From Psychrosphaera sp. F3M07 (GTDB lineage: Bacteria > Pseudomonadota > Gammaproteobacteria > Enterobacterales > Alteromonadaceae), in the NCBI RefSeq assembly GCF_018860345.1, contig NZ_JAHKPJ010000004.1, positions 174,536 through 238,535 on the forward strand: a DNA stretch of 64,000 nt, given 5' to 3'. A program made the translations under genes and the position numbers. The notes beneath the pieces were generated by a model. That model saw only the letters and a list, made by a program, of their open reading frames with translations. It did no database searches and had not been told where the DNA came from. The stretch's first letter is position 1, and each line of letters begins with the position of its first letter. Of the stretch, positions 8,295 to 42,986 are shown piece after piece.

Positions 8295-10142
8295 TTACGC
8301 CGAAACTTGTTGTACGCTTTCTAAGGTCTGTCTTAAAAAGCCGCCGTTAGTAATTAACTGCTGCTGTATATCTTGAATATCTTCGTTGGTTAAAATATGC
8401 AAAATGGCAAGCTTGGCGTTGTAATGGGTTTGTTCTAAGGCAACCTGCGCCGTATGTGCATCGCAATGTGTTGCTTGCATAACAATACGAATAGCACGGA
8501 CATAGAGTTTTTTATTACTGGCGTTAACATCAACCATTAAGTTTTCATAAATCTTACCCGTACGGATCATACTGGCGGTGCTTAACATGTTTAATATTAA
8601 CTTTTGTGCAGTACCAGATTTCATTCTTGTTGAGCCTGTTAGTACTTCAGGACCAACGACAGCACAAATATTGATGTCACAATATGTGGCTAATTGACTG
8701 CTTGGGTTACAACTAATAGATATGGTTTTTGTGCCTATGCTCTTTGCATAATCAATAGCGCCAATAACATATGGAGTTCGACCACTTGCTGCTATGCCTA
8801 CTAAGATGTCATTCTCACAATAGTTGATGTTAATTAGGTCATTTTTACCAAGTTCTGCTGAATCTTCAGCCCCTTCCACGGCTTTATAGATAGCTTGGCT
8901 ACCGCCGGCAATAATACCGATAACTTGTTCACTAGAAACACTGAATGTTGGAGGGCACTCAACCGCATCAAGTACACCTAATCGCCCACTCGTTCCCGCA
9001 CCAATGTAAATAAGTCTTCCACCTTTATTAAATGACTTAACTATTTCGTCAACGGCTTGACCAATATTAGGGATACAAGCTTTAATCGCATCTGGAACAA
9101 TGGCATCTGCTTGATTTATTTTGGTTAACAACTGCTCGGTATTAATTAAATCCAAGTCATAAGTGTCAGGGTTACGGGTTTCTGAAACCATATTTTCTAA
9201 CTGTGCAAGAAGAGTGTCTCTTTCTTTACTGTTGTACTTTTGGCTCTTAGTTTTATTTTGTGAATCTTGGCTGTCACCACCCAATTGTTTTTGAGCTAAT
9301 AAACAAGCCCCATCCAACGAGCTACCGCCTGTCAGTTTACAATAGGACTTAATATCATCGCTTAATAACGGCAAAGTTACTTCCGCCAAGCCGCCCATCA
9401 ACACGACATCCACACCACTGTCTAAACGAGTTTGTTGGATCAGTTGTTCAGTATCAGACACATGTTGTTCTATTAAGCCTTTTGCTACAGAACAATCATC
9501 CTTTGCAGCAAATACATCTCTGCTCAGAGACGCGTAATCTTTAGCTTGTGCTTTGGCTAACCAGTTGGCGATTTGTTGTTTACCTTCACCTAATTTTGCG
9601 GCAACAGCTTTAGCCATTTTTGAACGAGCTTCTTGATGCCAGTTTATTTCGGATAAAAGACTTTGTACTGCATTAAAACCAAGTTTAGCGCCACTGGCTT
9701 CATCACCAATTGGGAATCCCCAACCGCCAACATAGAATTCTTTGCCATTCTCATCTAAACGAGCACCTACCGAACCTGTTCCTAGCGCTATTACAGCAAC
9801 TGGAGAACCATTGTTCGCACCGTAAAGTGATGTTTTTGCATCGTTTACTACTTTTAAAGAAGAAAATGCAAATGGCAATTCATCGATAAGTTTTTCGGCT
9901 TGACTTGCAACTCCACCACCGGCAACACCGATAAGCACATGAACGTCCAAAGCCGATGCTTTAAACTTAAGTAATAGTTTTTCAATTAATTCTTTTAATA
10001 CAATTTGTGCATTAGCAAAGTCGTTACTTAAAGATGAAGCCCCAGATTGTATTGTGTGGCTCTCATTAGTGGATAGTTTTTCGATTCGACCAATGGTTTT
10101 TGTGCCACCACCATCAATACCTATTATGTATTTTTGCTCCAT
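8295..10142 (-). CDS. murQ: Fused MurNAc/GlcNAc kinase (BadF family) - MurNAc-6-phosphate etherase
   Basis: 615 aa, two enzymes in one chain. Residues about 1-290 are a BadF/BcrA-type sugar kinase (GIDGGGTKT phosphate loop, [24 protein letters not shown]), resembling MurK and GlcNAc kinases. A polar linker follows (about 290-310, rich in Q, S, K and N). The rest matches Mur[19 protein letters not shown] with catalytic Glu395 (E. coli Glu83), and [13 protein letters not shown]. The predicted sequence is MurNAc to MurNAc-6-P, then GlcNAc-6-P plus D-lactate, in the cytoplasm. The kinase would replace the PTS phosphorylation used by E. coli MurP, consistent with a neighbouring non-PTS symporter. 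The kinase's preference for MurNAc or GlcNAc is inferred. Confidence 0.9.
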
Positions 10143-11734
10143 TAGATTTCCTTAGAATCTGAGTTTTTGTCGATGTGTATAACCGTATTCGGTTTACCCA
10201 ATATGCAAGTTAAAAATGATAAAGCCGTACCTATACAAAGTTGCCAAGTGAATCCCAGATTAATTTGCCAATCTACAGGAAATAGGGCTTGTGCCACGTA
10301 CGGTTGAAATACTAAAGGAGTTAAAAAACCAACAACTAAGGCTAATAACACCGAATGTTGATTTCCGCGTTTAGTAAATAATGTGGCGCCATAAACTCCC
10401 AGCAAACCACTATATGAGAACACCATGACACTTAATGCAAAGGCCAATAGCGGCATTTCAGAATATTGTTGCCAGTAATAACAAAGGATAGCCATGGCCG
10501 ATAAGACAATCGCAACTAGCACCATGCTGATCTGACCGGCAAATACAAAATGACGGTCATTTTTTGCTTTTGTTTTCTGTATCCAAGGACGGTATAAGTC
10601 CTGAACAACTACAGAGGACATTGAATTTAAACCTGAATTTAATGTAGAGATTGCGGCGGCAATAACACCAATTGTTACAAGACCTTTGATACCAGCAGGT
10701 AATTCGTTTAATACGTAATACATAAATACGGTCACTTTTTCGCCAGAAAAAGTAGGGGTTTCCGCAATAGTGTTATTTAAGTTCATTAAGTCTGGGCGTT
10801 GATAGAAGACAAATAACAACAAGCCAATAACGATAAATAGCAACATAACGGGTATCACTAAAAACACGGACATTATAATAGAGCGACTGCCTTCTTTGGC
10901 GTCTTTACAAGTTAACACTCTTTGTGTCATATCTTGGTCTAAACCAAATGCAGCAATATTAAGTAGAACAAAACCAACAAGGGTTGATGCGACGGTAAAT
11001 ACGCCAGTAGAACTAAAGTCTAAACGCCAGTCGACGATTTGAAGTTTTGACGTCTGTCCATTACCTGGGTTTTGCAGCGCATCAATAATCTGCCCATAAT
11101 CAGCAGGAATACTTTGTAATAGGAAATAAATAACAAATAACCCAGCACTAACATATACGGCACATTGGATAACGTCACTATATATAACCGTCTTGATACC
11201 ACCGACGACAGAATATCCTAGCCCAACGGCTGCTAATACTAGTACGGATATCACTACAGAGTTAGGCTCTATATTGCCAAATAAAATCATAGCCACGGCG
11301 ATTGCAGCCATATACAGTCTTGCACCGCTGGCAAAGATACGACCAAAAAGATATAAAGTACCAGCTTGTTTTTTAGCGTTGGAACCAAATCGTTTCTCTA
11401 ATAATTCATATACAGTAGATACGTTGTTTTTGTAAAACTGTGGGATTAACCAAACTGACACTAAGTACGCAGCAATAAGTGCCCCTACATTAGTAAATAA
11501 GTAGGTTAGGTCACTCCTATATCCTTGGTCTGGACCACCTAAAAAGGTAGCGGCTGATTGTGAAGTTGCTAATACCGATATAGCAACAAGCCATACAGGC
11601 ATTTTATTTCCACCAAGAAAATAATCGTTAGTATTGTCGACTGACTTACGATTAAAGTACAAGCCGGTAAATACTAATATTAATATATAGCCAGAAAATA
11701 CTAGCCAGTCGTATAGATGAAATTGTCCAGTCAT
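10142..11734 (-). CDS. Sodium:solute symporter (SSS family), putative amino-sugar transporter
   Basis: 530 aa integral membrane protein with about 13-14 hydrophobic segments. It shows SSS-family features: the N-terminal [19 protein letters not shown] helix, [27 protein letters not shown], and a central DQDMTQR segment. Its stop overlaps the murKQ start by one base, indicating translational coupling. A Na+-driven importer delivering free MurNAc or GlcNAc to a cytoplasmic kinase fits this arrangement. The substrate is inferred from neighbours only. Confidence 0.82.
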
Positions 11735-11848
11735 AGTGTTTGTAATTCATAATTCCATGGTTTGGTATTTGTAGAATATATAATTCCTGTTAAGATGTAA
11801 AAACTTTAAGCAATTTATTTGAAAATATTCCCCAGTAAGGTGTTAGTT

Positions 11849-13714
11849 ATGGCAAAAAAAAGGTCGTTATTCGTTGTATTCTTTGGGATTTTTCTGTTTT
11901 TAATAGCAGGGTGCCAAACTTCAAAAAAAATAACTGAATCGGATATTCGAGTAGCATTAGCACAGAAATTAATGCTTGATGTTAGGTATTATTGCCCAAC
12001 CAACAACAAAAACCAGACATGCACTCAGCCATTAACAAAGTTAACGGGTGATCTTGCTAATATGATCTCCAACACTAATTTAGGTGGGATAATTTTATTT
12101 TCAGACAACTTAATATCTCCTGAACAAATCACACACCTGACTTATGATCTTCAAAACGCGGCACAAAACAGTAGTAGCCAAATACCATTATTTATTTCTG
12201 TTGATCAAGAAGGGGGGCGAGTGGTTCGTTTGCCTCGTGAACATGCAACGTCATTCAGTGGCAATATGGCAATTGGAGCCACCTTTGCTAAACACCAAGA
12301 TAAGTTTGCAAAAGAAGTTGGCCAAGTATTAGGGGCTGAGCTATCGGTTTTAGGCTTTAACGTGAATCATGCACCAACCGTTGATGTGAATGTAAACGCT
12401 CAAAACCCTGTTATTAACGTCCGCTCTTTTGGTGAAAATGTAGATTTGGTATCTAAACTTGGTACCAGTATGGCAGAGGCAATGCAGCAACAAAATGTGA
12501 TATCCACGTTAAAACACTTTCCAGGACATGGTGATACCAATGTTGACAGTCATACCGGCTTGCCTTTAGTGAGCCATGGTATTGAACGTATTACTAAGGT
12601 TGAGTTAGCTCCGTTTCAATATGCTATCGATAAAGGCATCGCAAAGATGATAATGACGGCACACATTCAATACCCAAGTTTAGATAACAGCAAGTTTGTT
12701 AGTAAAAGTGGGGAAAGCATGACATTACCTGCAACTATGTCGCGCAAAATATTAACTGACTTGTTACGTAATAAAATGAAGTTTGACGGGGTTGTGATCA
12801 CGGATGCGTTAGATATGAAAGGCATTAGTGATTATTTCTCTGAGGAAGAAGCGGTTATAAACACATTTGCAGCAGGTGCTGACATCGCACTTATGCCATT
12901 TAAAATCCGTACCCCACACGACTTGAGCAAATTAGATGTTTTATTAGATAAGTTAGTAGCTGCAACAATGAATGGCAGACTAGATAAACAAGAAGTAATA
13001 ACATCCGCAAAACGAATCGCCAAACTGAAACAAGAGTTTAATTTATCGAATAGTAATAAATACGCTATTGATAAAAAATTAATCAAGGTAAATAAGGTGC
13101 TTGCAAATAAAGCACATAAAAAGATTGAAACAGAGTTAGCGTTGGAGTCAGTTACGCTTATTAAAGGAAGCGGGACGTTAAATCCTACGGCTAAACGTAT
13201 TCATATTCTGATGCCAGATGAAAATAAATGTAAGGCAACGCTGCATGGATTTGGTCAAAATCATCAATATCAAATTAGCTGTAGTGACTTTATCACTGGT
13301 ACGTTTCAGCAAGTTTGGCAAGACTCAAAAAATGCAGATGTACTCATTGTAGGTAGCATATTTCCAAGCCAAAGCCCGGTAGAAATGGGCGGTATGGATG
13401 ATTGGCCGGAAATAAGAAAAAAACTTAAGTCTCTAACATGGCCTAAAAGTAACCGAGTGGGCGATATTAAAAAGTTACTTGCTAGAGCTAAAGCAGCCGG
13501 AAAACAAAGTGTGCTTATCAGTTTAAGAGCGCCTTATGAAGCAAGTCAATTTTACGATGTCACCACAGATATACTGGCGACATACTCTTACAATCAAAGT
13601 ACAAATAAAGAAAATGACGTATCTGGTGTGGCATTTGAAGCGGTTACTCAGATATTAATGGGTAAACGTGAGGCCAGTGGCAAGTTACCAGTCACCGTCA
13701 TAAAGCCTCAGTAA
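11849..13714 (+). CDS. nagZ: Lipoprotein beta-N-acetylglucosaminidase, GH3 family (NagZ-like)
   Basis: 621 aa from the ATG at 11849, which has an AAGG ribosome-binding site; a TTG at 11819 is in frame but less likely. A signal peptide ends in a lipobox (LIAGC), so it is an exported lipoprotein, unlike cytosolic E. coli NagZ. GH3 motifs: VDQEGGRVVRLP, KHFPGHGDTNVDSH with the NagZ-type Asp233/His235 dyad, and the nucleophile Asp319 in VVITDALDM. The C-terminal 220 residues form the second GH3 domain seen in B. subtilis NagZ (YbbD). It should release GlcNAc from muropeptides, complementing NamZ. It is divergent from the symporter operon across a gap of about 110 bp. Confidence 0.88.
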   Translation: MAKKRSLFVVFFGIFLFLIAGCQTSKKITESDIRVALAQKLMLDVRYYCPTNNKNQTCTQPLTKLTGDLANMISNTNLGGIILFSDNLISPEQITHLTYDLQNAAQNSSSQIPLFISVDQEGGRVVRLPREHATSFSGNMAIGATFAKHQDKFAKEVGQVLGAELSVLGFNVNHAPTVDVNVNAQNPVINVRSFGENVDLVSKLGTSMAEAMQQQNVISTLKHFPGHGDTNVDSHTGLPLVSHGIERITKVELAPFQYAIDKGIAKMIMTAHIQYPSLDNSKFVSKSGESMTLPATMSRKILTDLLRNKMKFDGVVITDALDMKGISDYFSEEEAVINTFAAGADIALMPFKIRTPHDLSKLDVLLDKLVAATMNGRLDKQEVITSAKRIAKLKQEFNLSNSNKYAIDKKLIKVNKVLANKAHKKIETELALESVTLIKGSGTLNPTAKRIHILMPDENKCKATLHGFGQNHQYQISCSDFITGTFQQVWQDSKNADVLIVGSIFPSQSPVEMGGMDDWPEIRKKLKSLTWPKSNRVGDIKKLLARAKAAGKQSVLISLRAPYEASQFYDVTTDILATYSYNQSTNKENDVSGVAFEAVTQILMGKREASGKLPVTVIKPQ

Positions 13715-13962: not shown

Positions 13963-15234
13963 TTATGTTGATGATATTAACCAATTAGGGATTTGATCTA
14001 AGTTAATTAAGTCATCCAAACTTTGACGTTCACGTATTACCGCAAACTGGTCACCTTTAACCATAACTTCTGCAATCAATGGCCTAGTATTATAAGTGCC
14101 AGACATAACCGCACCGTAAGCGCCACAATCACGAATTACAACAAGATCGCCTGATTCTAATTCTGGTAAGGTTCGTGCAACTGCAAAGGTATCTCCGCTT
14201 TCACAAACAGGGCCGACAATATCGTATTTTTTACGAGGCTTGTTTGATTCTATTACTGGGCTAATACGGTGATAAGCGTCATACAAACTTGGGCGTGCAA
14301 AGTCGTTCATTGCTGCATTTATGATTAAAAAATTCCTGTCGCTACCTAACTTGTCATAAATCACTGTACTGACTAAACACCCTGTATCGGCAGTTAAACT
14401 TCGACCCGGTTCAACTATGTATTTACAGTTAAATTGGCTTAACTCATCTTCAATGATCTGTCGGTATTCATTCATGTTAGGCAGTTTGTCGTTTTCAGGA
14501 TCGTAACAAATACCTAACCCACCGCCTAAATCCAATACGTTTATATTGATACCAAGCGTTTCTAATTGTTTATACAAATCAGCAACGCGTTTAAAGGCTG
14601 CTCTAAATGGAGTGACATCGGTAATTTGTGAGCCAATATGAACATGGATGCCTTGTACTGTTATACCAGGCAAGCTATCAGCTAATACAAAGGTATCTAA
14701 TGCATGTTGGTAACTGATGCCAAACTTGTTTTCGGCTGAGCCTGTGGTTATTTTTGCATGGGTATCAACCGCTACATCTGGATTAATCCTAATCGCAATA
14801 TGCGCCTTTTTATTACATTTAAGCGCCACCGCATTAATATTATGTAACTCGGCTACAGACTCAACGTTAAACTGAAAAATACCCTGTTCAATCGCATATT
14901 CAATTTCTTTTGCCGTTTTACCAACACCAGAGAATACAATCTTTTGTGCGTGAATACCGGCATGTAATGCGCGTTTTAACTCACCCAAACTTACTACGTC
15001 AGCCCCTGAACCTAACGCCGCTAATGTACGTAAAACGGCTTGGTTTGAATTTGCTTTTACTGCAAAACAAATTAAGTGATTTAAATCAGACAAGCGGGAC
15101 TGTAAAGATAAAAAGTTATTCTCAATCATGGTTGCCGAATATACATAAAATGGCGTTGGAATTGATTGTTGTATAGCGTTGATCGCAACATTCTCAACGT
15201 GAAGGCGGTTAGATTTATAGTTAAATTCGGACAT
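13963..15234 (-). CDS. lysA: Diaminopimelate decarboxylase (LysA-type)
   Basis: 423 aa from the ATG at 15234, aligned to typical LysA N-termini; an upstream ATG at 15288 adds 18 atypical residues. It is a PLP fold III decarboxylase: PLP-lysine Lys60 (CFAVKANSN), HIGSQ, GGGLGICYD, EPGRSL, and CESGD with the catalytic Cys. It converts meso-DAP to L-lysine and CO2. The neighbours suggest a catabolic role on DAP freed from peptidoglycan stems rather than the housekeeping biosynthetic copy. Divergent from the NhaC-family gene around a shared palindrome. Other D/L-amino acid decarboxylases of this fold are possible. Confidence 0.85.
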   Translation of the reverse strand: MSEFNYKSNRLHVENVAINAIQQSIPTPFYVYSATMIENNFLSLQSRLSDLNHLICFAVKANSNQAVLRTLAALGSGADVVSLGELKRALHAGIHAQKIVFSGVGKTAKEIEYAIEQGIFQFNVESVAELHNINAVALKCNKKAHIAIRINPDVAVDTHAKITTGSAENKFGISYQHALDTFVLADSLPGITVQGIHVHIGSQITDVTPFRAAFKRVADLYKQLETLGININVLDLGGGLGICYDPENDKLPNMNEYRQIIEDELSQFNCKYIVEPGRSLTADTGCLVSTVIYDKLGSDRNFLIINAAMNDFARPSLYDAYHRISPVIESNKPRKKYDIVGPVCESGDTFAVARTLPELESGDLVVIRDCGAYGAVMSGTYNTRPLIAEVMVKGDQFAVIRERQSLDDLINLDQIPNWLISST

Positions 15235-15306
15235 GAAGGCACTTATTGATTGGTTTTTATAATTGTGAATGTATACGTACCTTTGCATATTTTATGGGTT
15301 TTTAGC

Positions 15307-15395: not shown

Positions 15396-16793
15396 ATGAA
15401 TGAATGGTTATCTGTCATACCAACAATTGTGGCAATCGGCGTAGTATTTTGGCGAAAAGAAGTGATATTGGCATTGTTGTTGGCCGTTTTTTCATCCGAA
15501 CTTATCTTGGTTTTACATCATCAGTCAATATTGTCGAGTATGCCGATTAGTACAATTAATACGGTAGAACAAATCGTCAACGTATTTTCATCCCAAGACA
15601 ATACACGATTGTTAATGTTTTCTTTGTTAGTTGGCTCGTTATTAGCCTTTATGCGTTATTCCGGTGGTGTATCAGCTGTGGTGGAATTGTGTATTAAAAA
15701 AGGCATTGCCAAAACCCCTCGTCAGGCTGGATTAATCAGCTACTTTACAGGCTGTATGATATTTATTGAGTCAAACTTAAGCTCATTAACCGCAGGGATA
15801 TTATCTAGAGGTTTGTTTGATAAGTTTAAAATGAGCCGGGCAAAACTGGCCTATATTATTGATAGTACTAGTGCCCCCATTTGTATTTTGGTGTTATTAA
15901 ATGGTTGGGGGGCCTATATTTTGGGGCTTTTAAATCAATACGATTTACCTGAGTCTTCTATTAATATATTGGTCGGCACTGTTAGTTTGAACTTCTACGC
16001 GTTAATAACACTTGCCGTCGTACTCTATACAATAATCAGTGGCAAAACCTATGGGCCGTTAAAAAAATCTGAACTGCAATGTCAGCAAACCCCTTTATCT
16101 GAACAAACGGAACTGGACACTTTACCTACCAAAGCAAGATTTATGTTGCTGCCATTGATCACTATGGTTGTCGGTATGATCGGCTTTATGTATTGGACAG
16201 GTAATGGTGATATTGCCCAAGGTTCAGGCTCAAAATCGGTTTTATATGCAACATCTAGTGCCTGTCTTGTTGCTTATATCACTATGATTTTTAGTGGTAG
16301 CTTTACGCATCACAAATTAGTGAACATCGCATTTAAAGGCATGGCTGAATTGTTGCCTCTAGTTAGCATCATGTTGTTGTCTTTTGCTCTAGGCGCGAGT
16401 TTAAACAACTTAGGTACAGGTCATTTTATCGCGAGTTTGGTTGCAGGTAATTTACCGATATTTATTATTCCAGCGATCTTATTTTTATGTGGTGGGGTGA
16501 TCTCGTTTACAACCGGTACGTCATGGGGAACCTTTGCGTTATTGATCCCTATTGGAGTGCCTTTGATACAGACCTTAGATTTACATTCAGCTTTAGTAAT
16601 ATCGGCCATTTTAGGTGGGGGTGTATTTGGTGATCATTGTTCACCTATTTCAGACACGACGGCGGTTAGTTCCGTTGCATCTGGGTGTGACATGTTAGAA
16701 CACGTTCAAACCCAGCTGCCGTATGCATTAGTGTGTGGAGCAATTGCTTTTGTTGGTTATCTCATTGCTGGCTTTTTAATGTTGTCAGTTTAA
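15396..16793 (+). CDS. NhaC-family Na+/H+ antiporter-like transporter
   Basis: 465 aa with about 11-12 transmembrane segments and the family signature FGDHCSPISDTTAVSS near residues 409-424, plus TGTSWGTF. Family members include NhaC (Na+/H+) and MleN, which couples malate and lactate exchange to ion movement. Being divergent from lysA under a common candidate operator, it may move an amino acid or organic acid generated by peptidoglycan breakdown, such as lysine or lactate. That is inference. A GGAA ribosome-binding site precedes the ATG. Confidence 0.8.
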   Translation: MNEWLSVIPTIVAIGVVFWRKEVILALLLAVFSSELILVLHHQSILSSMPISTINTVEQIVNVFSSQDNTRLLMFSLLVGSLLAFMRYSGGVSAVVELCIKKGIAKTPRQAGLISYFTGCMIFIESNLSSLTAGILSRGLFDKFKMSRAKLAYIIDSTSAPICILVLLNGWGAYILGLLNQYDLPESSINILVGTVSLNFYALITLAVVLYTIISGKTYGPLKKSELQCQQTPLSEQTELDTLPTKARFMLLPLITMVVGMIGFMYWTGNGDIAQGSGSKSVLYATSSACLVAYITMIFSGSFTHHKLVNIAFKGMAELLPLVSIMLLSFALGASLNNLGTGHFIASLVAGNLPIFIIPAILFLCGGVISFTTGTSWGTFALLIPIGVPLIQTLDLHSALVISAILGGGVFGDHCSPISDTTAVSSVASGCDMLEHVQTQLPYALVCGAIAFVGYLIAGFLMLSV

Positions 16794-16808: not shown

Positions 16809-16853
16809 CCCTAGAACTACTTGATTGGGAAGTCCCAATAAGTAGTTCTAGGG
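16809..16853. terminator. Long hairpin between convergent genes, overlapping the ddpX 3' end
   Basis: A perfect 14-bp inverted repeat (CCCTAGAACTACTT / AAGTAGTTCTAGGG), with an inner 6-bp stem ATTGGG / CCCAAT and one bulged G, forms a near-continuous 20-bp hairpin. It starts 16 bp after the antiporter stop, and its right part is coding sequence for the last residues of the dipeptidase. There is no clear T-run on either side, so it may be a bidirectional terminator or an mRNA-stabilising structure. Confidence 0.6.
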
Positions 16854-17533
16854 TCGGTAGTATGAGTAAAATGCCACCACTCCATTGAGTAATCCGAAAA
16901 ACCATGTTTCAGCATGAGGTTTTTTAATAGCAGCCTGTTTTGGGTTTGTTTAGGCGTAACTAAAGTTGACATTGTATTAGACTTTTCATCAAACAGATCA
17001 AAAGGCGACCCCATGTCTAACTCAGTGAATTGTCCGTCTTTGGTTTGATATTCAATGGTTAAATCAACGGTGTAGCCCCGGCTATGCCCTGATTTTTCAG
17101 CTATATATTCACCCTTCAACAAAGGTTTAGACAAGTTAGGGTAATACTCTGCCTTAGTTGAAATATCTTTAGTATCGTCTACCCAACGCATAAAGTGAGC
17201 AACAGCGGTTTGTGGCCTGTAACAATCAAATACTTTTAATCGTTTCAATTCCTTTTTTAGTTCATCATTTACTTTTTTTAATGCTTGTACCGCGTCTTTA
17301 TGCAAAATACATTTTGGTGCTTTGTATGCGTCTATTGGTCTGCCAACGAAGTTGTTGGCAGTGTAATACCTAATATCAAAAGAGGCAGATGGAATAATAT
17401 CTTGAGCATTAACAAATGCAGTTTTTGAAACTAAATTATTAATGGCTAGCGCGTACGAGGTAGCCAAAATGCTTGTACTGCATATTAAAATTAATGTTAT
17501 GTTGCTTGTGAACTTTGTTAAGTATCGCGTCAT
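16817..17533 (-). CDS. ddpX: Periplasmic D-alanyl-D-alanine dipeptidase (VanX/DdpX, peptidase M15D)
   Basis: 238 aa with a signal peptide (hydrophobic segment about 12-30). VanX-family residues are present: YRP (Arg106), SGHSRGYTVD with zinc ligands His150 and Asp157, and EWWHF with catalytic Glu218 and zinc ligand His221. It hydrolyses D-Ala-D-Ala to two D-Ala. E. coli DdpX lets cells use D-Ala-D-Ala as a nutrient; VanX gives vancomycin resistance. No VanH/VanA partner lies here and the context is catabolic, so nutrient use is favoured. D-Ala would feed the D-amino acid transaminase at 22398. Confidence 0.9.
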   Translation of the reverse strand: MTRYLTKFTSNITLILICSTSILATSYALAINNLVSKTAFVNAQDIIPSASFDIRYYTANNFVGRPIDAYKAPKCILHKDAVQALKKVNDELKKELKRLKVFDCYRPQTAVAHFMRWVDDTKDISTKAEYYPNLSKPLLKGEYIAEKSGHSRGYTVDLTIEYQTKDGQFTELDMGSPFDLFDEKSNTMSTLVTPKQTQNRLLLKNLMLKHGFSDYSMEWWHFTHTTDPRTTYWDFPIK

Positions 17534-18166: not shown

Positions 18167-18970
18167 ATGAAAGAAACAGATCCAAGCACAGCGTCGCCAT
18201 CACAAGTCCGTCGTTTTATTCGAGACGGCAAGTGGAAAAGTCATACCTCTGGATTAGCTAATGGTTACGTTCAATGTAATTTAGTTATTCTGCCAGAACC
18301 TGAAGCCAATGATTTTTTAAAGTTCTGCCAATTAAATCCTAAGTCTTGCCCAATCATAGCTATGTCCTCAGAAGTTGGCTCGCCGTATATCGATGTTGGC
18401 GCTGACGAACCAGCAGATATTCGTAGTGATATACCAGAGTATAATATTTTTGTTGGTGGTGAGTTGCAGTCTCAGGTGTCGGACATTAATGACTATTGGC
18501 GTGATGATTTAGTTATATTTTTACTGGGTTGTTCATTCTCATTTGAAGAAGCGCTGTTAGCCGATGGCATTGAAATCAGAAATATTACTCAGAATGTCAA
18601 TGTTCCTATGTACAACACGAATATAGCCAATGTTAAAGCGGGTGAGCTTGCTGGTAATTTAGTGGTGAGTATGCGCCCAATGTTAGCGAAAGATGCGATT
18701 AGGGCGGTGCAAATATGCAGTCGTTTTCCAAGCGTTCACGGTGCGCCTGTGCATTTGGGTGACCCAAGTTTGATTGGTATTTCTGACATTAATAAACCAG
18801 ATTATGGCGACGCAGTAGAAATTAAACAAGATGAATTGCCTGTATTCTGGGCGTGTGGCGTGACACCACAAAATGTTATCCGCCAAGCTAAAGTGGACTT
18901 TTGTATTACCCATAGTCCAGGTTGCATGTTAGTGACGGATATAAAAAATAGTACACTTTCTGTTTTTTAA
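18167..18970 (+). CDS. DUF1445 family protein (YcsI-like, putative hydro-lyase)
   Basis: 267 aa, typical DUF1445 length. Recognisable motifs: [12 protein letters not shown] near the N-terminus, [10 protein letters not shown] (about 122-131), YNTNI, VSMRPM, and [10 protein letters not shown] then WACGVTPQN near the C-terminus. In B. subtilis the homologue ycsI sits with the pxpABC genes, and in the mammalian D-glutamate cyclase DGLUCY a DUF1445-like region is fused to DUF4392. Here it opens an operon with pxpABC and a separate DUF4392 gene. Its reaction is not established; a step acting on 5-oxo-D-proline or D-glutamate is a reasonable inference. Confidence 0.85.
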
Positions 18971-19035
18971 GTTACGTTTTATTAACACAATCACATCTTA
19001 TGCAGACAATAGAATAAAGGTAGATTTAAAACACC

Positions 19036-19788
19036 ATGGCTAAAAAATTAAAGTTAAATTGCGATCTTGGTGAAAGTTTTGGTTCATGGAAAATGGGCTT
19101 AGATGAAGCAGTGATGCCACATATCGACATGGCAAATATCGCTTGTGGTTTTCATGCCGGTGATGCGGATGTGATGTCACATACTTTAGATCTTGCCAAG
19201 CAACATTCAACTGAAATAGGTGCACATCCTGGTTACCCAGATATACAAGGATTTGGTCGTCGTTCTATGACGTGCAGTGAAGCAGAAATCATCAATATGA
19301 TGGTGTATCAAGTGAGTGCATTAGGTGGCATGGCAAGCACAAAGGGATTAACCGTTAATTATGTTAAACCTCATGGTGCGCTGTATAACGATATGATGAA
19401 ATTATCGAATGTACGACACGCTATTTATAAAGCCATGGCGGCACTGAACGCCAACCAAATTAATAATTTATCTTTGTTGATGTTAGCCACGCAAGAGAAT
19501 GAAAAGTATATTGAAGAAGCCAAAGAATATGATCTTGCTTTGCAGTTTGAAGTTTTTGCCGACAGACGTTATACCGACGATGGAAGATTGCAGGCAAGAA
19601 CGGAACAAGGCTCAGTGCTTAAACATGATGAAATATTAACTCAAGTTGAACAACTTAACCGTGGGCAAGTGGTAACGGCATCAGGCTCTGTGATCCAAGT
19701 GCAAGCCGATACAATCTGTGTGCATGGTGATAACGCTGATGGCATATCGTTAATTTCAGACATTCGTCAACTTTGTATAGCGGATTGA
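19036..19788 (+). CDS. pxpA: 5-oxoprolinase subunit A (LamB/YcsF family)
   Basis: 250 aa, the standard PxpA length. Family motifs: LNCDLGESFGSWKMG at the N-terminus, ANIACGFHAGD, GAHPGYPDIQGFGRR, VKPHGALYN, EVFADRRY, and CVHGDN near the C-terminus. PxpA works with PxpB and PxpC to open 5-oxo-L-proline to L-glutamate with ATP. It is the second gene of the operon, 65 bp after DUF1445 and 9 bp before pxpB. In this setting the substrate may come from peptidoglycan D-glutamate cyclised by the DUF4392 enzyme. Confidence 0.93.
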   Translation: MAKKLKLNCDLGESFGSWKMGLDEAVMPHIDMANIACGFHAGDADVMSHTLDLAKQHSTEIGAHPGYPDIQGFGRRSMTCSEAEIINMMVYQVSALGGMASTKGLTVNYVKPHGALYNDMMKLSNVRHAIYKAMAALNANQINNLSLLMLATQENEKYIEEAKEYDLALQFEVFADRRYTDDGRLQARTEQGSVLKHDEILTQVEQLNRGQVVTASGSVIQVQADTICVHGDNADGISLISDIRQLCIAD

Positions 19789-19797
19789 GTAGCGTAA

Positions 19798-20559
19798 ATG
19801 ACGAAGTATAGTCAACAAGAACAACAGAATATGAATTTGGTTGCTGATTTTATGCAGTCTATTCGGGTTGTACCTGCATCGGAAAGCGCAATCATTTTAT
19901 ATATAGACCAACCGCTGACGGATACGTTGGCAGAACAACTTCAAAGTATTGCTGATGGTGTGTTATCCCTAGCCAATACCAGTGAAATTGAAATTGTTAG
20001 TTCTTATGCGTCTTTGTTGATCAATTATAATCCATTGAAAACGGATCATTTTGCGATTAAACAGATGCTTTTCCAAGCTATCAAGTCAATGTTTTCGGAC
20101 AATTCACACACTGACTACAGCCAACAAACTGACCAAAAATTAGTGGAATTACCTGTGTATTATTCTGACACAACAGGTCCAGATTTAGCCCGAATAGCCA
20201 CACATCATAAGCTTTCTGTCGAAGAGGTTATTCAAATTCATCAGCAACAAACCTATCGAGTCTTTGCAATTGGATTTGCCCCTGGTTTTGGTTATATGGG
20301 ACAGGTGGACCCACAGATAGCGATGCCACGATTAGCCACGCCAAGAGCGTTAGTGCCTAAAGGTGCAGTGGCAATAGCGGATAGGCAAACCGCAGTTTAT
20401 CCTGCAGCGTCACCTGGTGGTTGGAATATTATCGGCCAATGTCCGATATTAATGTTTAACCCAAATGTAGAACCTTCGATGCCATTTAAAGTTGGCGATT
20501 CAGTACGATTTAAAGCAATCGATCAAGACACATTTTTTGCAATGGGCGGTGAACAATGA
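19798..20559 (+). CDS. pxpB: 5-oxoprolinase subunit B (KipI-like)
   Basis: 253 aa, carboxyltransferase domain 1 / AHS1 family. Characteristic motifs: LPVYYSDTTGPDLARIA, FAIGFAPGFGYMGQVDPQIAMPR, PKGAVAIADRQTAVYP and SPGGWNIIGQCP. It forms the PxpBC complex with the next product. Its TGA overlaps the pxpC ATG (ATGA), indicating translational coupling. The KipI homologue in Bacillus was first described as a kinase inhibitor, but linkage to pxpA and pxpC supports oxoprolinase here. Confidence 0.92.
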   Translation: MTKYSQQEQQNMNLVADFMQSIRVVPASESAIILYIDQPLTDTLAEQLQSIADGVLSLANTSEIEIVSSYASLLINYNPLKTDHFAIKQMLFQAIKSMFSDNSHTDYSQQTDQKLVELPVYYSDTTGPDLARIATHHKLSVEEVIQIHQQQTYRVFAIGFAPGFGYMGQVDPQIAMPRLATPRALVPKGAVAIADRQTAVYPAASPGGWNIIGQCPILMFNPNVEPSMPFKVGDSVRFKAIDQDTFFAMGGEQ

Positions 20560-21527
20560 ATGCCCTAATGCCACACTTTATCGTAGAGCGTCCTGGAGTA
20601 TTAAGCTTAATTCAAGATGCCGGGCGATTTGGTCAGACCCATTTAGGATTAACCCAAGGTGGCCCTGCTGATAGGTTTTCATTTAATTGGTGCCATAACT
20701 TATTAGGCAATGCACATACATGCAGTGCAATTGAAGTTGTCATAGGCGGTCTTAAATTAATTAGCCAAAGTCACACTATAGGGTGTGTCACTGGCGCAGA
20801 AACACCTGTGACCGTCAATGGCAAAGCAACGCCGATGTGGCATACCTTTGAGATTAATATTGGTGATGTAATTGAATTTGGATTTGCAACACAGGGATTA
20901 CGTAGTTATTTCTCGGTTTGTGGTGGTTTTGATATTGCCCCTGAATTTGGTAGTTGTTCTACCGTCGTGAGAGAGAAAATTGGTGGGCTTAGTGGCGACG
21001 CCTTAAAACAAGGCGACCAACTGCCAGTAATTGTTGATACTGATAATCCTATGCCACAGTCTGAGATAAATGCTATTGCTCCGGAATTCATCCCTCGTTT
21101 TGAATCATCAGTTACGTTACGGGTTGTATTAGGTTATCAGCATGATTGGTTTTCTGATTTAGATATTCGACGTTTCTTTAGTAGCCGTTACGAGATAAGT
21201 AGTCAATTTGATCGAATGGGATATCGGCTACAAGGAACAAAAATCACCGCAAATAAGACTCAAATGTTATCCGAAGGCATTACATTAGGTGCGATACAAA
21301 TCCCTGCCGACGGACAGCCAATAATACTACTAAATGATCGTCAAACCATTGGGGGCTATCCCAAAATTGGCAGTGTATTATCACTGGATTTAGACAAGTT
21401 GAGCCAATGTAAACAAGGCGATTATGTGCATTTTGAAGCGATTAGTATTGAACAGGCTCATAATATTTTACATATAGATCAACACCAACAGTCGCTTATC
21501 CAAATTGTCAAAAAGGCCTATAAATAA
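20556..21527 (+). CDS. pxpC: 5-oxoprolinase subunit C (KipA-like, biotin-dependent carboxyltransferase-type)
   Basis: 323 aa, AHS2 family. Motifs include GVLSLIQDAGRFGQTHLGLTQGGPAD at the N-terminus, ANK and LSEGITLGAIQIPADGQPI, and GGYPKIGSVLSLDLDKL. It is the partner of PxpB in ATP-dependent 5-oxoproline hydrolysis. Its last base is the first base of the DUF4392 gene, so the oxoprolinase and cyclase-like genes are translationally coupled. Length and motifs look complete. Confidence 0.92.
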   Translation: MNALMPHFIVERPGVLSLIQDAGRFGQTHLGLTQGGPADRFSFNWCHNLLGNAHTCSAIEVVIGGLKLISQSHTIGCVTGAETPVTVNGKATPMWHTFEINIGDVIEFGFATQGLRSYFSVCGGFDIAPEFGSCSTVVREKIGGLSGDALKQGDQLPVIVDTDNPMPQSEINAIAPEFIPRFESSVTLRVVLGYQHDWFSDLDIRRFFSSRYEISSQFDRMGYRLQGTKITANKTQMLSEGITLGAIQIPADGQPIILLNDRQTIGGYPKIGSVLSLDLDKLSQCKQGDYVHFEAISIEQAHNILHIDQHQQSLIQIVKKAYK

Positions 21528-22369
21528 TGGTTGTTAACCCAGTGGCGCTTGCTGAAAAAATTGAAGATTTATTAGTTGAGAAAGATTTGCGTGGGATGAA
21601 ATTTGCCCAAAGTTGTCTTACCCCCGGGTATTATTATCGCGCTGCTGAGTTGATACATAATGCAACAGGCACGGTTTTGATTGGGACTGGGTTTCCGGTG
21701 TTAAATACCTTTGAGACCGACGGGCCGGTAGGGGCAATTGTGTTATATAATGCACTGATACAAATTGGCTTAAAACCAGTTCTAGTTTGTGGTGACCCTT
21801 TATATTCCGCTTTAAACAATGATTACGATTGTCTGCGTTTAAACATAGCCGAACATCACAACGCAGAAGCATTTGCTAAGCGAACATTATCTGAAATTCA
21901 ACCTTCATTATTGATCTCAATTGAACGACCCGGGTTAACCCAAGATGGTACATACCGGAATATGTTTGGGGATGATATTTCAGATCGCTGTGCGAGGTTT
22001 GATGATTTTTTAAATCATGCAACTTGCCCCACTATTGGCATTGGAGATGGTGGCAATGAAATTGGAATGGGCAATATAAGCCAACATCTCAGTTCTCATA
22101 ATATTATGGCCTCGCAAACTTGTTGCGATGAATTATTGATTGCCGATGTCTCTAATTGGGCTGCGTATGGCATTTTAGCTCTCCTAGGCAAGTTAAGAAA
22201 TGAAGACTTATTGGACAGTGTAAACCCGTTAGCTATTTTGCAGTACCTTTCCGACAAAGGTTGTATTGATGGTGTCACCAAAAAAAATACGCTGACGGAA
22301 GATAGTTTAAGTTATACCGAAGGTGTAAACCTAATAGATAAAATTCGCACTCTGTGTGGGTTTAAATAA
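21527..22369 (+). CDS. D-glutamate cyclase-like protein (DUF4392)
   Basis: 280 aa DUF4392-family protein. Visible motifs: GTGFPV near 45-50, ETDGPVGA, ISIERPG, TIGIGDGGNEIGMGN, and NWAAYG near the C-terminus. DUF4392 is the C-terminal domain of mammalian DGLUCY, which converts D-glutamate to 5-oxo-D-proline. Here it is a free-standing protein next to pxpABC and a D-amino acid transaminase. Cyclisation of D-Glu freed from peptide stems, or made by D-Ala transamination, fits. It overlaps pxpC by one base. Confidence 0.85.
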   Translation: MVVNPVALAEKIEDLLVEKDLRGMKFAQSCLTPGYYYRAAELIHNATGTVLIGTGFPVLNTFETDGPVGAIVLYNALIQIGLKPVLVCGDPLYSALNNDYDCLRLNIAEHHNAEAFAKRTLSEIQPSLLISIERPGLTQDGTYRNMFGDDISDRCARFDDFLNHATCPTIGIGDGGNEIGMGNISQHLSSHNIMASQTCCDELLIADVSNWAAYGILALLGKLRNEDLLDSVNPLAILQYLSDKGCIDGVTKKNTLTEDSLSYTEGVNLIDKIRTLCGFK

Positions 22370-22397
22370 CGTTGATACATGTAGTACAGGAAACTCG

Positions 22398-23258
22398 ATG
22401 AGCACAGTATTTTTAAATGGCGAATATATGGCGCCAGAAGACGCAAAGATCTCACCAATGGATCGCGGATTTTTGTTTGGTGATGGCATTTACGAAGTCA
22501 TTCCAAGTTATGATGGCAAGTTTGTTGGTTTTGCCCTTCATTTTGAACGTTTGTTAAATGGCTTGGCTGCGATTCGCTTAACCAATACATTTACCGAGGC
22601 TGAGTTTAGAGAGATTTGTACTCAACTAGTTAGCAAAAATGGCAAAGGCAACTTAGGTGTTTATATTCAAATATCTCGCGGCCCCGCTCCAGTAAGACAA
22701 CATGGCTTTAGCGATGATATTACACCAACGGTATTTATTTATACCTTTGAAATACCACCTATGCCTAACGTTGATGCTGGTAACACTAAGTTCTATAAAG
22801 TGAACACTCAAGTAGATACTAGATGGCAAAACAAACATATTAAATCTACCTCATTGTTGGGTAATGTAATGCATTATCAAACAAGTAAAGATGCTGGGTT
22901 TGATGAAACCTTATTATTCAATACTCATGGCGAATTGACCGAAGCCGCCGCTTGTAACGTATTTATTGTCAGTGGTAATAAAATTTTAACACCACAGCTA
23001 GATCATGAAAAATTACCGGGCATAACCCGAGCTATGGTTATTGATGTGGTAAATAAACACAGTACGTTTGAGCTTGAAGAAAGAGTGATTAGTTTTGACG
23101 AAGTAATAAATGCCGATGAAGTTTGGATTACAAGCTCCTCTAAACAAGTTGCCCCAGTGGGATTATTAAATGATCAAGTTGTGGGTGATGGCAAGACTTA
23201 CTCGGTGTGGTATCAAGTTCAGTCGTTATTTACGAAACACCTGTTTGATTATAATTAA
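22398..23258 (+). CDS. dat: D-amino acid transaminase (D-alanine aminotransferase)
   Basis: 286 aa from the ATG at 22398, preceded by AGGAAA; an in-frame upstream start inside the previous gene gives a poor N-terminus. Fold IV PLP aminotransferase: MDRGFLFGDGIYEVIPSY, PLP-lysine Lys149 in HIKSTSLLGN, and LTEAAACNVFIV. It interconverts D-Ala + 2-oxoglutarate and pyruvate + D-Glu. As last gene of the DUF1445-pxp-DUF4392 operon it would channel D-Ala nitrogen into D-Glu, which the cyclase could consume. Branched-chain or 4-amino-4-deoxychorismate activities exist in the fold but fit the context less well. Confidence 0.88.
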   Translation: MSTVFLNGEYMAPEDAKISPMDRGFLFGDGIYEVIPSYDGKFVGFALHFERLLNGLAAIRLTNTFTEAEFREICTQLVSKNGKGNLGVYIQISRGPAPVRQHGFSDDITPTVFIYTFEIPPMPNVDAGNTKFYKVNTQVDTRWQNKHIKSTSLLGNVMHYQTSKDAGFDETLLFNTHGELTEAAACNVFIVSGNKILTPQLDHEKLPGITRAMVIDVVNKHSTFELEERVISFDEVINADEVWITSSSKQVAPVGLLNDQVVGDGKTYSVWYQVQSLFTKHLFDYN

Positions 23259-23263
23259 TAAAA

Positions 23264-23303
23264 AGGCGGTTAACTGTATTCAACTAGTTAACCGCCTGTT
23301 TTG
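23264..23303. terminator. Bidirectional terminator between dat and serine hydrolase
   Basis: A 12-bp perfect stem (AGGCGGTTAACT / AGTTAACCGCCT) has a 10-nt loop, between two convergent genes. It is followed by GTTTTG on the plus strand and preceded by AAAAA, which gives T5 on the minus strand. The stronger tail faces the minus-strand gene. Confidence 0.85.
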
Positions 23304-24825: not shown

Positions 24826-26043
24826 TTAACTTGGCGGTAAAGTAAGCGTGCCACTTATCGCCGCGTTATTCGCACCGGTTACCGACGGTAGTGTACTGGG
24901 CAATAAATTAATACGGCAATAAGCCAACCAGGCAAATGCGATCGCTTCCATATAGTCACTCTCTATGCCTAATTCAGACGTATCTTTTATTTGCCAATCT
25001 GGTAACAAATGTTTAATTGCATCCATCAAGGAGTGATTCCTACATCCGCCTCCAAACGCCCATAAAATGTTTAGGCATTCATCTTTGTTATTCGGGGTGT
25101 GATTTGCATATTGATTTAGGTCATTACAAATGGTTTGGGCTGTAAGCTGCACTAATGTTGCCATTATGTCTTCATTGGTTAGTGTCATTTGTGCATGTTT
25201 ATTATTAACGAGCGCCAACTGATGCTCTAACCAGCGTTCATTAAAATATTCACGACCAGTGCTTTTGGGAGGCGATTTTTTAAAATAAGGGTCGGACAAC
25301 ATAATAGTTAACAATTCTTCATTAACCGTGCCCGATGCAGCTATATCGCCATTTGAATCAAACGCTAGGTCAAACTGGTTTAACGCCCAAAGATCTATCA
25401 AAGCATTGCCTGGACCAGTATCAAATCCAATCGTAGATTTATGTATTCCGATTTGTTTATTTTGCATGGTTGGGGGAGTGACCAGTGTAATATTTGCCAT
25501 ACCACCAATATTCAAAAACGCTGCCGATTGAGCGCCAGTGAACTTTGAATTATTAAAACTATTTAATGAAAGTAAAAACTGGTGAAACGCTGGGATTAAC
25601 GGTGCACCTTGGCCATTTAACGCAATATCCATAGATCTAAAATCACAGATGGTTGTGATATTGGTCATTGCTGCAATTAAGGATGAATTCACTAATTGCA
25701 TAGAAAATGGATGCTCGCCAACGGGATGATGACATACCGTTTGGCCATGACAACCGATAGCTTGAATATCACTGGATGAGAGTTTATTGCGTACTAAAAG
25801 CGCATTTATAGCCTCAGCATAAGACTTACTCAAGTGCTGAGTAATTTGCCCAAGTTCAACCAAATTAGCGGATTGGCGTTCACAAAGTGTTAAGACCTGC
25901 TGCCGTAATAGTGGGCAAAATTTCGTTTCGCTAGTGGCTAAAACTGAAATCTTATTGTTGTCGAAACTAACTATGGCTAAATCGATAGCATCCACACTTG
26001 TACCGGACATAACCCCAATATACAGAGATTTATTATTCTTCAT
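24826..26043 (-). CDS. anmK: Anhydro-N-acetylmuramic acid kinase
   Basis: 405 aa from the ATG at 26043, which gives an N-terminus like E. coli AnmK (MK...IGVMSGTS); an ATG seven codons earlier is possible. Motifs: GVMSGTSVDAIDL, GCHGQTVCHHP, DFRSMDIALNGQGAPLIPAFH, GFDTGPGNALID and AFGGGCRNHSLMD. It hydrolyses the 1,6-anhydro ring and phosphorylates anhydroMurNAc to MurNAc-6-P, feeding MurQ. It lies apart from murKQ but has a palindrome of the same type in its promoter. Length is normal for the family. Confidence 0.95.
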   Translation of the reverse strand: MKNNKSLYIGVMSGTSVDAIDLAIVSFDNNKISVLATSETKFCPLLRQQVLTLCERQSANLVELGQITQHLSKSYAEAINALLVRNKLSSSDIQAIGCHGQTVCHHPVGEHPFSMQLVNSSLIAAMTNITTICDFRSMDIALNGQGAPLIPAFHQFLLSLNSFNNSKFTGAQSAAFLNIGGMANITLVTPPTMQNKQIGIHKSTIGFDTGPGNALIDLWALNQFDLAFDSNGDIAASGTVNEELLTIMLSDPYFKKSPPKSTGREYFNERWLEHQLALVNNKHAQMTLTNEDIMATLVQLTAQTICNDLNQYANHTPNNKDECLNILWAFGGGCRNHSLMDAIKHLLPDWQIKDTSELGIESDYMEAIAFAWLAYCRINLLPSTLPSVTGANNAAISGTLTLPPS

Positions 26044-26105
26044 TAAGATCCCATCTATACACACATTTGAACGACAGTATAACGATGGAATAACATATTT
26101 AATGC

Positions 26106-31622: not shown

Positions 31623-32081
31623 ATGTTTCGCGGTGCAAACCCTCTTTCTTTAGATAGTAAAGGACGGTTGTCGATACCTACTCGACACCGAGACTTGTTG
31701 CTGTCTGAATCTGAAGGGAAAATGATTTGTACGGTGGATCTTCACCAGCCTTGCCTCTTACTCTACCCATTAGTTGAATGGGAAGACATCGAATATAAAT
31801 TACGCCAACTGTCATCAATGAATCCTCATGAAAGAAGAGTTCAGCGTGTTTTATTAGGTAACGCACACGAAGTGGATATGGATAAAAGCGGGCGTATTTT
31901 ACTGCCAACGGCATTAAGGCAACACGCCAGTTTAGATAAACCCATTATGTTAGTGGGGCAACTGAATAAGTTTGAAATTTGGTCTGAGACCAGATGGCAA
32001 CAACAAATGTCTGACGACATTGAAACTGAACTTGAAGGTGACTTTGAGTTAACAGACAGATTAAAAGATTTTTCTCTTTAA
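31623..32081 (+). CDS. mraZ: MraZ, transcriptional regulator of the dcw operon
   Basis: 152 aa with the duplicated AbrB-like DNA-binding fold: [23 protein letters not shown]-type N-terminus and a second unit with [24 protein letters not shown]. The first gene of the division/cell-wall operon. It is likely autoregulated through the TGGGA repeats just upstream. An ATGGAGTGAACA leader carries the GGAG ribosome-binding site. Length and motifs are standard. Confidence 0.96.
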
Positions 32082-32108
32082 CTTTATTTATTGATAAATG
32101 GCAGAACA

Positions 32109-33044: not shown

Positions 33045-33361
33045 TGAAAAAAACAATAGACAGTCAGTTAGCAAAATTGATTTTTAAGGACATCGGTAAG
33101 TACAAACTTACAATGGGGCTCCTGTTGCTCAATGTGATCTTTGCCATCGCAGTGGTTCATTGGGCGCAGCTTAACCGACAAATGGTGATCCAACAGGACG
33201 TATTGTTGCAACAACGCGATGATATCGACCTACGCTGGCGCCATTTGTTATTAGAACAGCGGTCTTTGGCCGAACACAGCCGAGTTGAAAATATCGCTCG
33301 CAATCGTCTTGGTATGAATCGTCCTACTACGGATGAAGAAGTGGTGGTGACCTTGCCATGA
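33044..33361 (+). CDS. ftsL: Cell division protein FtsL
   Basis: 105 aa bitopic membrane protein. A short cytoplasmic N-terminus precedes one transmembrane helix (about 22-40) and a periplasmic coiled coil (about 45-85) with the LLLEQRSLAEHSRVENIARNR-type segment. It forms the FtsQLB complex in the divisome. Identification rests on position between rsmH and ftsI, size and topology. The stop overlaps the ftsI start (ATGA). Confidence 0.93.
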   Translation: MKKTIDSQLAKLIFKDIGKYKLTMGLLLLNVIFAIAVVHWAQLNRQMVIQQDVLLQQRDDIDLRWRHLLLEQRSLAEHSRVENIARNRLGMNRPTTDEEVVVTLP

Positions 33362-38139: not shown

Positions 38140-38161
38140 TAAAAATAATAAAGGTAAGGTT

Positions 38162-39244: not shown

Positions 39245-39265
39245 TCTTATAGAGAAGTGAATAAT

Positions 39266-42982: not shown

Positions 42983-42986
42983 GTAA

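Follow-up and report, generated by a model that had tools for sequence, protein, structure and literature searches.

PxpABC is a bacterial 5-oxoprolinase that acts on the L form of 5-oxoproline, and to our knowledge no function is known for DUF1445 proteins, a widespread family with solved structures that one half of a human enzyme resembles. According to the available part of PMC13274462 and the work cited there, PxpABC is needed for the use of 5-oxo-L-proline. In mammals DUF1445 is fused to DUF4392, and the available part of PMC5339696 reports that the purified full-length mouse protein converts D-glutamate to 5-oxo-D-proline, with both enantiomers as standards, and that people excrete mainly 5-oxo-D-proline. 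The two fused domains have been suggested to perform sequentially linked reactions (PMC5132392, part available), and bacterial split homologues of GLUCM_HUMAN appear in the available part of PMC11580864, in a row that reads 0 and 6, which we take as the numbers for full-length and split forms. Here we analyse a stretch of 64,000 nucleotides of Psychrosphaera sp. F3M07 (contig NZ_JAHKPJ010000004.1, positions 174,536 to 238,535), termed the window, in which separate DUF1445 and DUF4392 genes flank those of PxpABC. This operon gives DUF1445 a specific, testable substrate and a set of partners.

The operon probably turns cell-wall D-glutamate into L-glutamate. More tentatively, the reading that we prefer is a salvage route of cyclization by DUF4392, inversion by DUF1445 and opening by PxpABC. 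The D-glutamate would come from the stem peptides of peptidoglycan, or be made by the transaminase of the operon from D-alanine and 2-oxoglutarate. DUF4392, as a metalloenzyme, would cyclize it to 5-oxo-D-proline. DUF1445 would invert this lactam to 5-oxo-L-proline, probably with two thiols that exchange the proton on the alpha carbon. PxpABC would then open the L form to L-glutamate at the cost of ATP, making the D-to-L conversion one-way. We infer which half is the cyclase, that DUF1445 performs the inversion, and how it does so. Since opening of 5-oxo-D-proline would only return D-glutamate, it is reasonable for one operon to encode both a cyclase and a 5-oxoprolinase if the product of the first is inverted before the second acts on it.

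Results

The operon of the window

The plus-strand unit of six genes is real, and occupies 18167-23258 (Table 1). Successive genes are separated by 65, 9, -4, -1 and -14 bases. The arrangement proposed in the sequence-only reading, in which PxpABC is flanked by DUF1445 and DUF4392 as separate genes and a transaminase of D-amino-acid type belongs to the same operon, is borne out by family matches in the window and by wide conservation (110 loci, 87 of which have the transaminase).

DUF1445 exceeds the cut-off of the NCBIfam model NF003969, ‘putative hydro-lyase’ (400.4 against 324), and DUF4392 has no NCBIfam match at an E value of 0.001. PxpA lies above the cut-off of the subfamily model NF003816 (325.1 against 213) and below those of all three PxpA equivalog models of NCBIfam. 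The transaminase falls below the D-amino-acid-transaminase cut-offs of PRK06680 (230.6 against 320) and TIGR01121 (193.1 against 277.45), yet these are its best-scoring NCBIfam families. The names of the transaminase and of PxpC need care, because both proteins score below curated cut-offs.

Conservation of the operon

We compared 113 loci with DUF4392 (33 + 80), leaving 110 after three duplicates were dropped; the 80 are the best of at least 538 confirmed relatives, and hence close to the operon of the window. Genes were counted within 8 kb on the same strand. The operon recurs in many Gammaproteobacteria, far beyond chance: DUF1445 is present at 92 of the 110 loci, PxpA at 96, PxpB at 93, PxpC at 96, and at least one Pxp subunit at 101. 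Where DUF1445 is not nearby (18 loci), the genome has it elsewhere in 14 cases, although one of these matches covers only 65 of 143 positions, and overall DUF1445 is found in the genomes of 106 of the 110 loci. Two of the four exceptions are cut contigs, L042 (genome G401, where the contig ends inside PxpA) and L144 (a 9 kb contig of a metagenome-assembled genome). The other two genomes, G057 and G108 (completeness 100 and 99), have DUF4392 without DUF1445, and PxpA is missing from them too.

At four loci PxpC and DUF4392 form a single frame of 590-607 codons (Table 1), and Pfam shows both domains in that of L110. The fusion suggests that the product of DUF4392 probably feeds PxpBC. In L056, L061, L062 and L064 DUF1445 directly adjoins DUF4392 in the mammalian order (gaps of 10, 2, 81 and 1 bases), with PxpABC elsewhere in the genome. 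No frame with both the DUF1445 and DUF4392 domains was found in the searched loci, and in the window they are separate genes. Frames of 691 amino acids (L156, L163) and 605 amino acids (L209) around DUF1445 were rejected as fusions by eye; the DNA is G+C-rich, and the N-terminal extensions appear to be open by chance.

As controls we used PxpA from genomes without DUF4392, taking 20 of the 21 places that scored best and leaving out G415. The transaminase occurs at 87 of the 110 DUF4392 loci, against none of the 41 loci with DUF1445 only (described below) and three of the 20 PxpA controls. The window transaminase and all 87 of those at DUF4392 loci have an R-x-H motif, which we take to be the carboxylate-binding motif of D-amino-acid transaminases. 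At 29 of the 110 loci an alanine racemase gene lies directly 3′ of the transaminase (e.g. L167:10894-11994; Pfam was run on one representative). We note that loci with both genes hold a D-Ala/D-Glu gene set.

More distant DUF4392 proteins may serve other pathways. Five neighbourhoods on alpha- and betaproteobacterial plasmids, out of 68 plasmid records with matches, place such genes near LysR or LacI regulators, aminotransferases, an annotated alanine racemase, RidA-type proteins and a hydantoinase B/oxoprolinase gene. On a Sinorhizobium fredii plasmid (L228:6926-10364) a ‘selenocysteine synthase’ gene is flanked by two ‘glutamate cyclase domain’ genes, near amino-acid ABC transporter genes.

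Co-inheritance of DUF1445 and DUF4392

Among 147 genomes of the family to which the window belongs, PxpA is present in 132, DUF1445 in 31 and DUF4392 in 30. Both DUF genes are found in 29; DUF4392 stands alone in one, on a cut contig, and DUF1445 alone in two (G390 and G418, of one genus). The co-occurrence gives a Fisher p of 3e-27, with kinship ignored. Nine genera mix genomes that have both genes with genomes that have neither, and contain no split state; the other two varying genera are that of G390 and G418 and that with the cut contig. In G309, whose PxpA belongs to the clade of the operon, the NagZ-like, SSF and PxpABC genes are kept and both DUF genes are missing. Constant pairing of the two genes is weighed against by G312 and G356, in which DUF1445 lies about 60 kb from DUF4392.

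DUF1445 in the absence of DUF4392

In a sample of 299 genomes across the phylum DUF1445 was found in 43, DUF4392 in seven and both in five, so that 38 of the 43 genomes with DUF1445 lack any DUF4392. We read 41 DUF1445 loci, from 40 genomes outside the family of the window, and DUF4392 was in none of the 41 stretches read. The sequence-only reading had held that neighbourhoods generally lacking DUF4392 would tell against a role for DUF1445 in this chemistry. Outside the family they do generally lack it (0 of 41 loci; 38 of 43 genomes), but the objection is weak, as 19 of the 41 carry a 5-oxoprolinase.

A Pxp subunit lies within about 7 kb of DUF1445, on either strand, at 13 of the 41 loci, and a hydantoinase/oxoprolinase of OPLAH type is found at six more (Pfam was run on one). 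PxpA is present somewhere in 32 of the 40 genomes, and in five of the remaining eight OPLAH lies no more than about 4 kb from DUF1445. The same 41 loci contain genes for TRAP transporters (17), LysR regulators (28), LivK-type binding proteins (9) and NRAMP-like transporters (5), none of which were seen in the 20 PxpA control loci; the 110 DUF4392 loci have LysR in 17 and none of the transporters. The available part of PMC13274462 describes an NRAMP-like transporter of 5-oxoproline as well as TRAP proteins that bind it. L201:10531-12575 and its relatives are DUF1445-TRAP loci with DUF2848 and an amidase, some of them in genomes without a nearby 5-oxoprolinase.

The company of two unrelated 5-oxoprolinases, PxpABC and OPLAH, suggests that DUF1445 follows the substrate and not one particular enzyme, and since it is often beside one or the other without DUF4392, it most likely acts on 5-oxoproline itself. 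DUF1445 seems to be linked quite generally to the use of 5-oxoproline, and to be near-obligatory in genomes with DUF4392. The idea that it serves PxpABC alone, as a subunit or a stereo-adaptor, was rejected, an OPLAH-type 5-oxoprolinase sharing the locus in six of 41.

The distribution also bears on the assignment of the two halves. If the labels were swapped, Pfam would be right in naming DUF1445 the D-glutamate cyclase, and DUF4392 would take another step. The Pfam and NCBIfam names agree with this, though they apparently derive from the mammalian fusion. We consider it improbable: the transaminase keeps company with DUF4392 and is missing from the loci with DUF1445 alone, many DUF1445-only loci look like systems for the uptake and opening of 5-oxoproline (TRAP in 17 and a 5-oxoprolinase in 19 of the 41), and DUF4392 is the half widely kept among animals (PMC5339696, part available).

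Residues and structure of DUF1445 and DUF4392

Over 136 rows of aligned DUF1445 sequences Cys122 is present in 131 and Cys230 in 132, and R15, N38, D84, E127, R170, H191 and T233 are invariant. Cys61, Cys122 and Cys230 are all kept in the window protein and in each of the 90 rows linked to DUF4392. Cys122 is missing only in L216-L220, four of which lack Cys230 as well; there is no DUF4392 in these loci. In the AlphaFold model (predicted local distance difference test score 90.8) Cys122 and Cys230 both sit at the end of a strand, ahead of a helix, at turns that resemble those of two-thiol racemases. The solved relatives 2pif and 3db9 have the same fold, with 43-49% identity over nearly the whole protein.

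DUF4392 has solved relatives in 4dwz, 5gl2-5gl4, 5gkx and 4fc5. The window protein has all six metal-site acids of TON_0340, of which E63, D65, E133, D174 and E178 are present in 111 of 111 rows and D248 in 109. This site, with the company of the transaminase, suggests that DUF4392 is the cyclase. The sequence-only reading went further in treating the conversion of D-glutamate to 5-oxo-D-proline by DUF4392 as known; that is not established, the assay having been of the full-length mouse protein (available part of PMC5339696).

The proposal that DUF1445 acts after DUF4392 and before PxpABC is backed by the co-inheritance of the two genes, by the presence of DUF1445 with 106 of the 110 DUF4392 loci and by its 5-oxoprolinase company, and DUF1445 is the leading candidate for the missing inversion. 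The role would fit its occurrence in the genome in every case with an uncut locus and with DUF4392 and PxpA both found, and its absence from G057 and G108, which lack PxpA. It would also fit its presence beside two unrelated 5-oxoprolinases, and its conserved thiols.

Contrary evidence and alternative readings

A number of observations weigh against an inversion by DUF1445, and the strongest is that the DUF1445-like half of the mammalian protein does not visibly racemize, the reported mouse product being the D form, which is also the one that people mainly excrete (PMC5339696, part available). In 22 of the 41 DUF1445-only loci no 5-oxoprolinase was found in the stretch read, PxpA being about 7.2 kb away in two of them. 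The genome of the window also contains two proteins of PF01177, the Asp/Glu racemase family, which may already interconvert D- and L-glutamate.

Other points concern PxpABC. The PxpC of the operon scores 205.6 bits with the 5-oxoprolinase equivalog NF045499, whose cut-off is 500, so that its specificity could be altered. In a quick PxpA tree, with supports from the Shimodaira-Hasegawa-like approximate likelihood ratio test (SH-aLRT), 95 of 96 DUF4392-linked rows fall in one clade (SH-aLRT 97) together with L219, L220, L223, L224 and L247, and 19 of the 20 control PxpA proteins, which are from the family of the window, lie outside it. The operon thus comes with its own PxpABC, whose specificity is possibly altered. 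L239, L243 and L250 have PxpABC, transaminase and alanine racemase genes without DUF1445 or DUF4392; their PxpA proteins are the nearest outgroup to the operon clade and their alanine racemases are 46-50% identical to that of L167. At these loci there is no cyclase for the D-glutamate that the transaminase makes, an argument that this group of PxpABC has a wider role with D-amino acids.

These loci are the main support for a reading in which PxpABC of the operon type has a changed or broad stereospecificity and would open 5-oxo-D-proline to D-glutamate, to leave via the transaminase and, in many loci, the alanine racemase; DUF1445 and DUF4392 would then be a two-part cyclase or a by-pass. The separate PxpA clade, the low PxpC score and the 29 loci with alanine racemase directly 3′ of the transaminase are consistent with it. 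The sequence-only reading had likewise allowed that PxpABC might accept the D form. We disfavour this and think it unlikely: with a D-glutamate cyclase in the same operon it would make a futile, ATP-burning circle. Moreover, G333 and G320 combine the DUF1445-DUF4392 pair with a separate PxpABC (L225 and L226) that groups with ordinary PxpA, and DUF1445 also accompanies OPLAH-type enzymes. PxpA is single copy in the genome of the window, with no OPLAH-type match, so that these searches gave no second 5-oxoprolinase to act on the L form, and the operon PxpABC probably also serves ordinary 5-oxo-L-proline.

A last group of points concerns the DUF1445 protein. A third cysteine, Cys61, is better kept (135 of 136 rows), and the choice of the Cys122/Cys230 pair is ours. 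Comparison of the profiles of the two lobes aligned Cys122 with Cys230 in two of three runs, with P of 0.15; the third, with shorter lobes, gave P of 0.041 over 27 columns only, with the cysteines outside the alignment. The only clear structural match outside DUF1445 is the NrpR-like 3nek_B (MJ0159), which is not a racemase (Z 9.5, root-mean-square deviation 4.4 over 168 residues; Foldseek E 1.8e-6). No racemase family was among the 50 matches listed, an absence that excludes no fold, and DUF1445 has no Pfam match to the MurI, DapF or proline racemase families.

NrpR senses 2-oxoglutarate, and the remote match to MJ0159 is in keeping with DUF1445 as a non-catalytic or accessory binder of 5-oxoproline or glutamate, in the form of a sensor, a carrier or an activator of the cyclase. 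An activator half would suit the fused protein of mammals. Such a role is rather unlikely in our view: the strictly conserved polar residues (136 of 136 rows) look catalytic, and DUF1445 occurs in genomes without DUF4392 and beside two unrelated 5-oxoprolinases.

Genomic surroundings

Genes for the synthesis and salvage of peptidoglycan lie close together in the window (Table 1). For several building blocks of peptidoglycan the window holds a gene that may serve in salvage, and the arm for D-Glu and D-Ala would be the operon; the M15 dipeptidase is a possible source of D-Ala. The division and cell-wall cluster downstream encodes MraZ, MraW, a transpeptidase of the penicillin-binding protein class, a protein with the MraY signature, a GT28 glycosyltransferase and FtsQ, with four Mur ligase family proteins at 35192, 36697, 39257 and 42987, the third of which has MurD-like N-terminal matches. 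The kinase-SIS fusion, of 615 amino acids, is matched by two separate adjacent genes in L047, L051 and L247. The hairpin 3′ of the last operon gene is suggested to be a terminator by its length and place only, the number of terminator-like sites across the window being at the level of shuffles (4 against 4.2 expected).

A Pseudoalteromonas plasmid, the sixth neighbourhood read among the 68 plasmid records, has similar company by annotation, namely an M15 metallopeptidase, an FAD/FeS protein, GH3, a putative hydro-lyase, PxpA, a glutamate cyclase domain protein and a class IV aminotransferase. As a general rule, linkage to peptidoglycan salvage is unsupported: a salvage gene lies near a minority of long DUF4392 loci (14 of 72, against 1 of 20 PxpA controls; p 0.18). 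These counts would suit a view of the neighbours as brought together for regulation only, in a general 5-oxoproline clean-up or cell-wall cluster without a single pathway. That view is very improbable, given that two genes which mostly do not adjoin are present or absent together, and given the PxpC-DUF4392 fusions and the pairing of DUF1445 with DUF4392 that is kept when PxpABC moves away.

Table 1. Features of the operon and its surroundings. Coordinates are those of the window, except for the last line, where each locus is named.
Feature	Coordinates	Strand	Matches and remarks
DUF1445 (UPF0317/YcsI-like), proposed 5-oxoproline racemase	18167..18970	+	PF07286, 219.9 bits, cut-off 25
PxpA, 5-oxoprolinase subunit (LamB/YcsF)	19036..19788	+	PF03746, 287.6 bits
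PxpB, 5-oxoprolinase subunit	19798..20559	+	PF02682, 214.3 bits; TIGR00370 163.1, cut-off 145.55
PxpC-like 5-oxoprolinase subunit, divergent	20556..21527	+	PF02626, 282.8 bits; domain model TIGR00724 274.2, cut-off 230.2
DUF4392 (TON_0340-like metalloprotein), proposed D-glutamate cyclase	21527..22369	+	PF14336, 226.6 bits, cut-off 27.9
Class IV aminotransferase, D-amino-acid-transaminase type	22356..23258	+	PF01063, 177 bits; true start perhaps 22398
Terminator-like hairpin 3′ of last gene	23264..23297	+	13 pairs, 6 G-C, T-rich tail
RpiR-type regulator	start of window		upstream of operon
Flavin adenine dinucleotide/iron-sulphur (FAD/FeS) oxidase, D-lactate-dehydrogenase layout (name inferred)	1318..4227	+	PF02913, PF01565, Fer4, CCG
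NamZ exo-beta-N-acetylmuramidase	7028..8251	-	PF07075, PF20732
BadF-type kinase fused to SIS/GKRP-like domain (MurK-MurQ type, name inferred)	8295..10142	-	PF01869, PF22645, PF01380
SSF sodium:solute symporter	10142..11734	-	PF00474
GH3, NagZ-like	11819..13714	+	PF00933, 295.3 bits; best NCBIfam beta-N-acetylhexosaminidase, 185 against 207, below cut-off
Diaminopimelate/ornithine decarboxylase family, LysA type	13963..15288	-	PF02784, PF00278
NhaC-type transporter	15396..16793	+	PF03553
M15 D-Ala-D-Ala dipeptidase (VanX/DdpX type)	16817..17533	-	PF01427, 131.1 bits; below NCBIfam VanX and DdpX cut-offs
AnmK anhydro-N-acetylmuramic acid kinase	24826..26064	-	PF03702, 410.2 bits; NF007139 over cut-off
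Division/cell-wall cluster, MraZ to FtsQ	31623-46077	+	begins about 8 kb downstream of operon
PxpC-DUF4392 fusions	L110:7987-9810, L164:8023-9816, L166:7496-9271, L167:8056-9828		Porticoccaceae, HTCC2207-like and Cellvibrionales genomes

Discussion

The preferred reading, if true, would provide a new racemase and a route by which bacteria recover the D-glutamate of the cell wall via 5-oxoproline, as well as a reason for the fusion of the two domains in animals. A bolder version is possible, though we regard it as speculative. DUF1445 would then found a new class of cofactor-independent racemases, acting on 5-oxoproline, and would form an ATP-driven one-way D-to-L glutamate converter with DUF4392 and PxpABC; mammals would have inherited DUF1445 and DUF4392 in fused form and lost or silenced the inversion. 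That loss would explain the excretion of 5-oxo-D-proline. A literature search with most subscription papers outside its reach gave no paper on a 5-oxoproline racemase or on the function of DUF1445, and within that scope ‘putative hydro-lyase’ and ‘5-oxoprolinase’ never occurred together.

Comparison with known systems

In DUF1445 the placing of conserved cysteines, at a strand-to-helix turn in either half of the protein, resembles that in the cofactor-independent two-cysteine racemases MurI, DapF and proline racemase. Unlike them, DUF1445 has a third conserved cysteine and lacks a Pfam match to their families. The UPF0317 proteins (2pif and 3db9; YcsI) share the fold of the window protein; in B. 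subtilis, control searches found DUF1445 and did not find DUF4392.

TON_0340, the DUF4392 protein of Thermococcus, has all six metal-site acids in common with the window protein. It is a stand-alone protein with weak Mn-dependent phosphatase activity and a true substrate given as unknown in the available part of PMC5132392.

The PxpABC of B. subtilis and C. glutamicum consists of the same PxpA, PxpB and PxpC families, encoded by adjacent genes. It differs in that the window PxpC is below the equivalog cut-off and PxpA of the operon type has a clade to itself. In the main text of the C. glutamicum PxpABC paper a word search found no DUF1445, D-glutamate, racemase or stereo-.

The closest parallel is mammalian DGLUCY (9030617O03Rik / C14orf159, EC 4.2.1.48), which has the two domains that the window encodes on separate genes, where both score over the Pfam cut-offs. 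Their order in mammals, DUF1445 then DUF4392 (available parts of PMC5339696 and PMC5132392), is that of the bacterial pairs in L056, L061, L062 and L064. In mammals the halves are fused and 5-oxo-D-proline is released (PMC5339696, part available), whereas in the operon they are separate, usually with PxpABC between them, and are followed by the transaminase.

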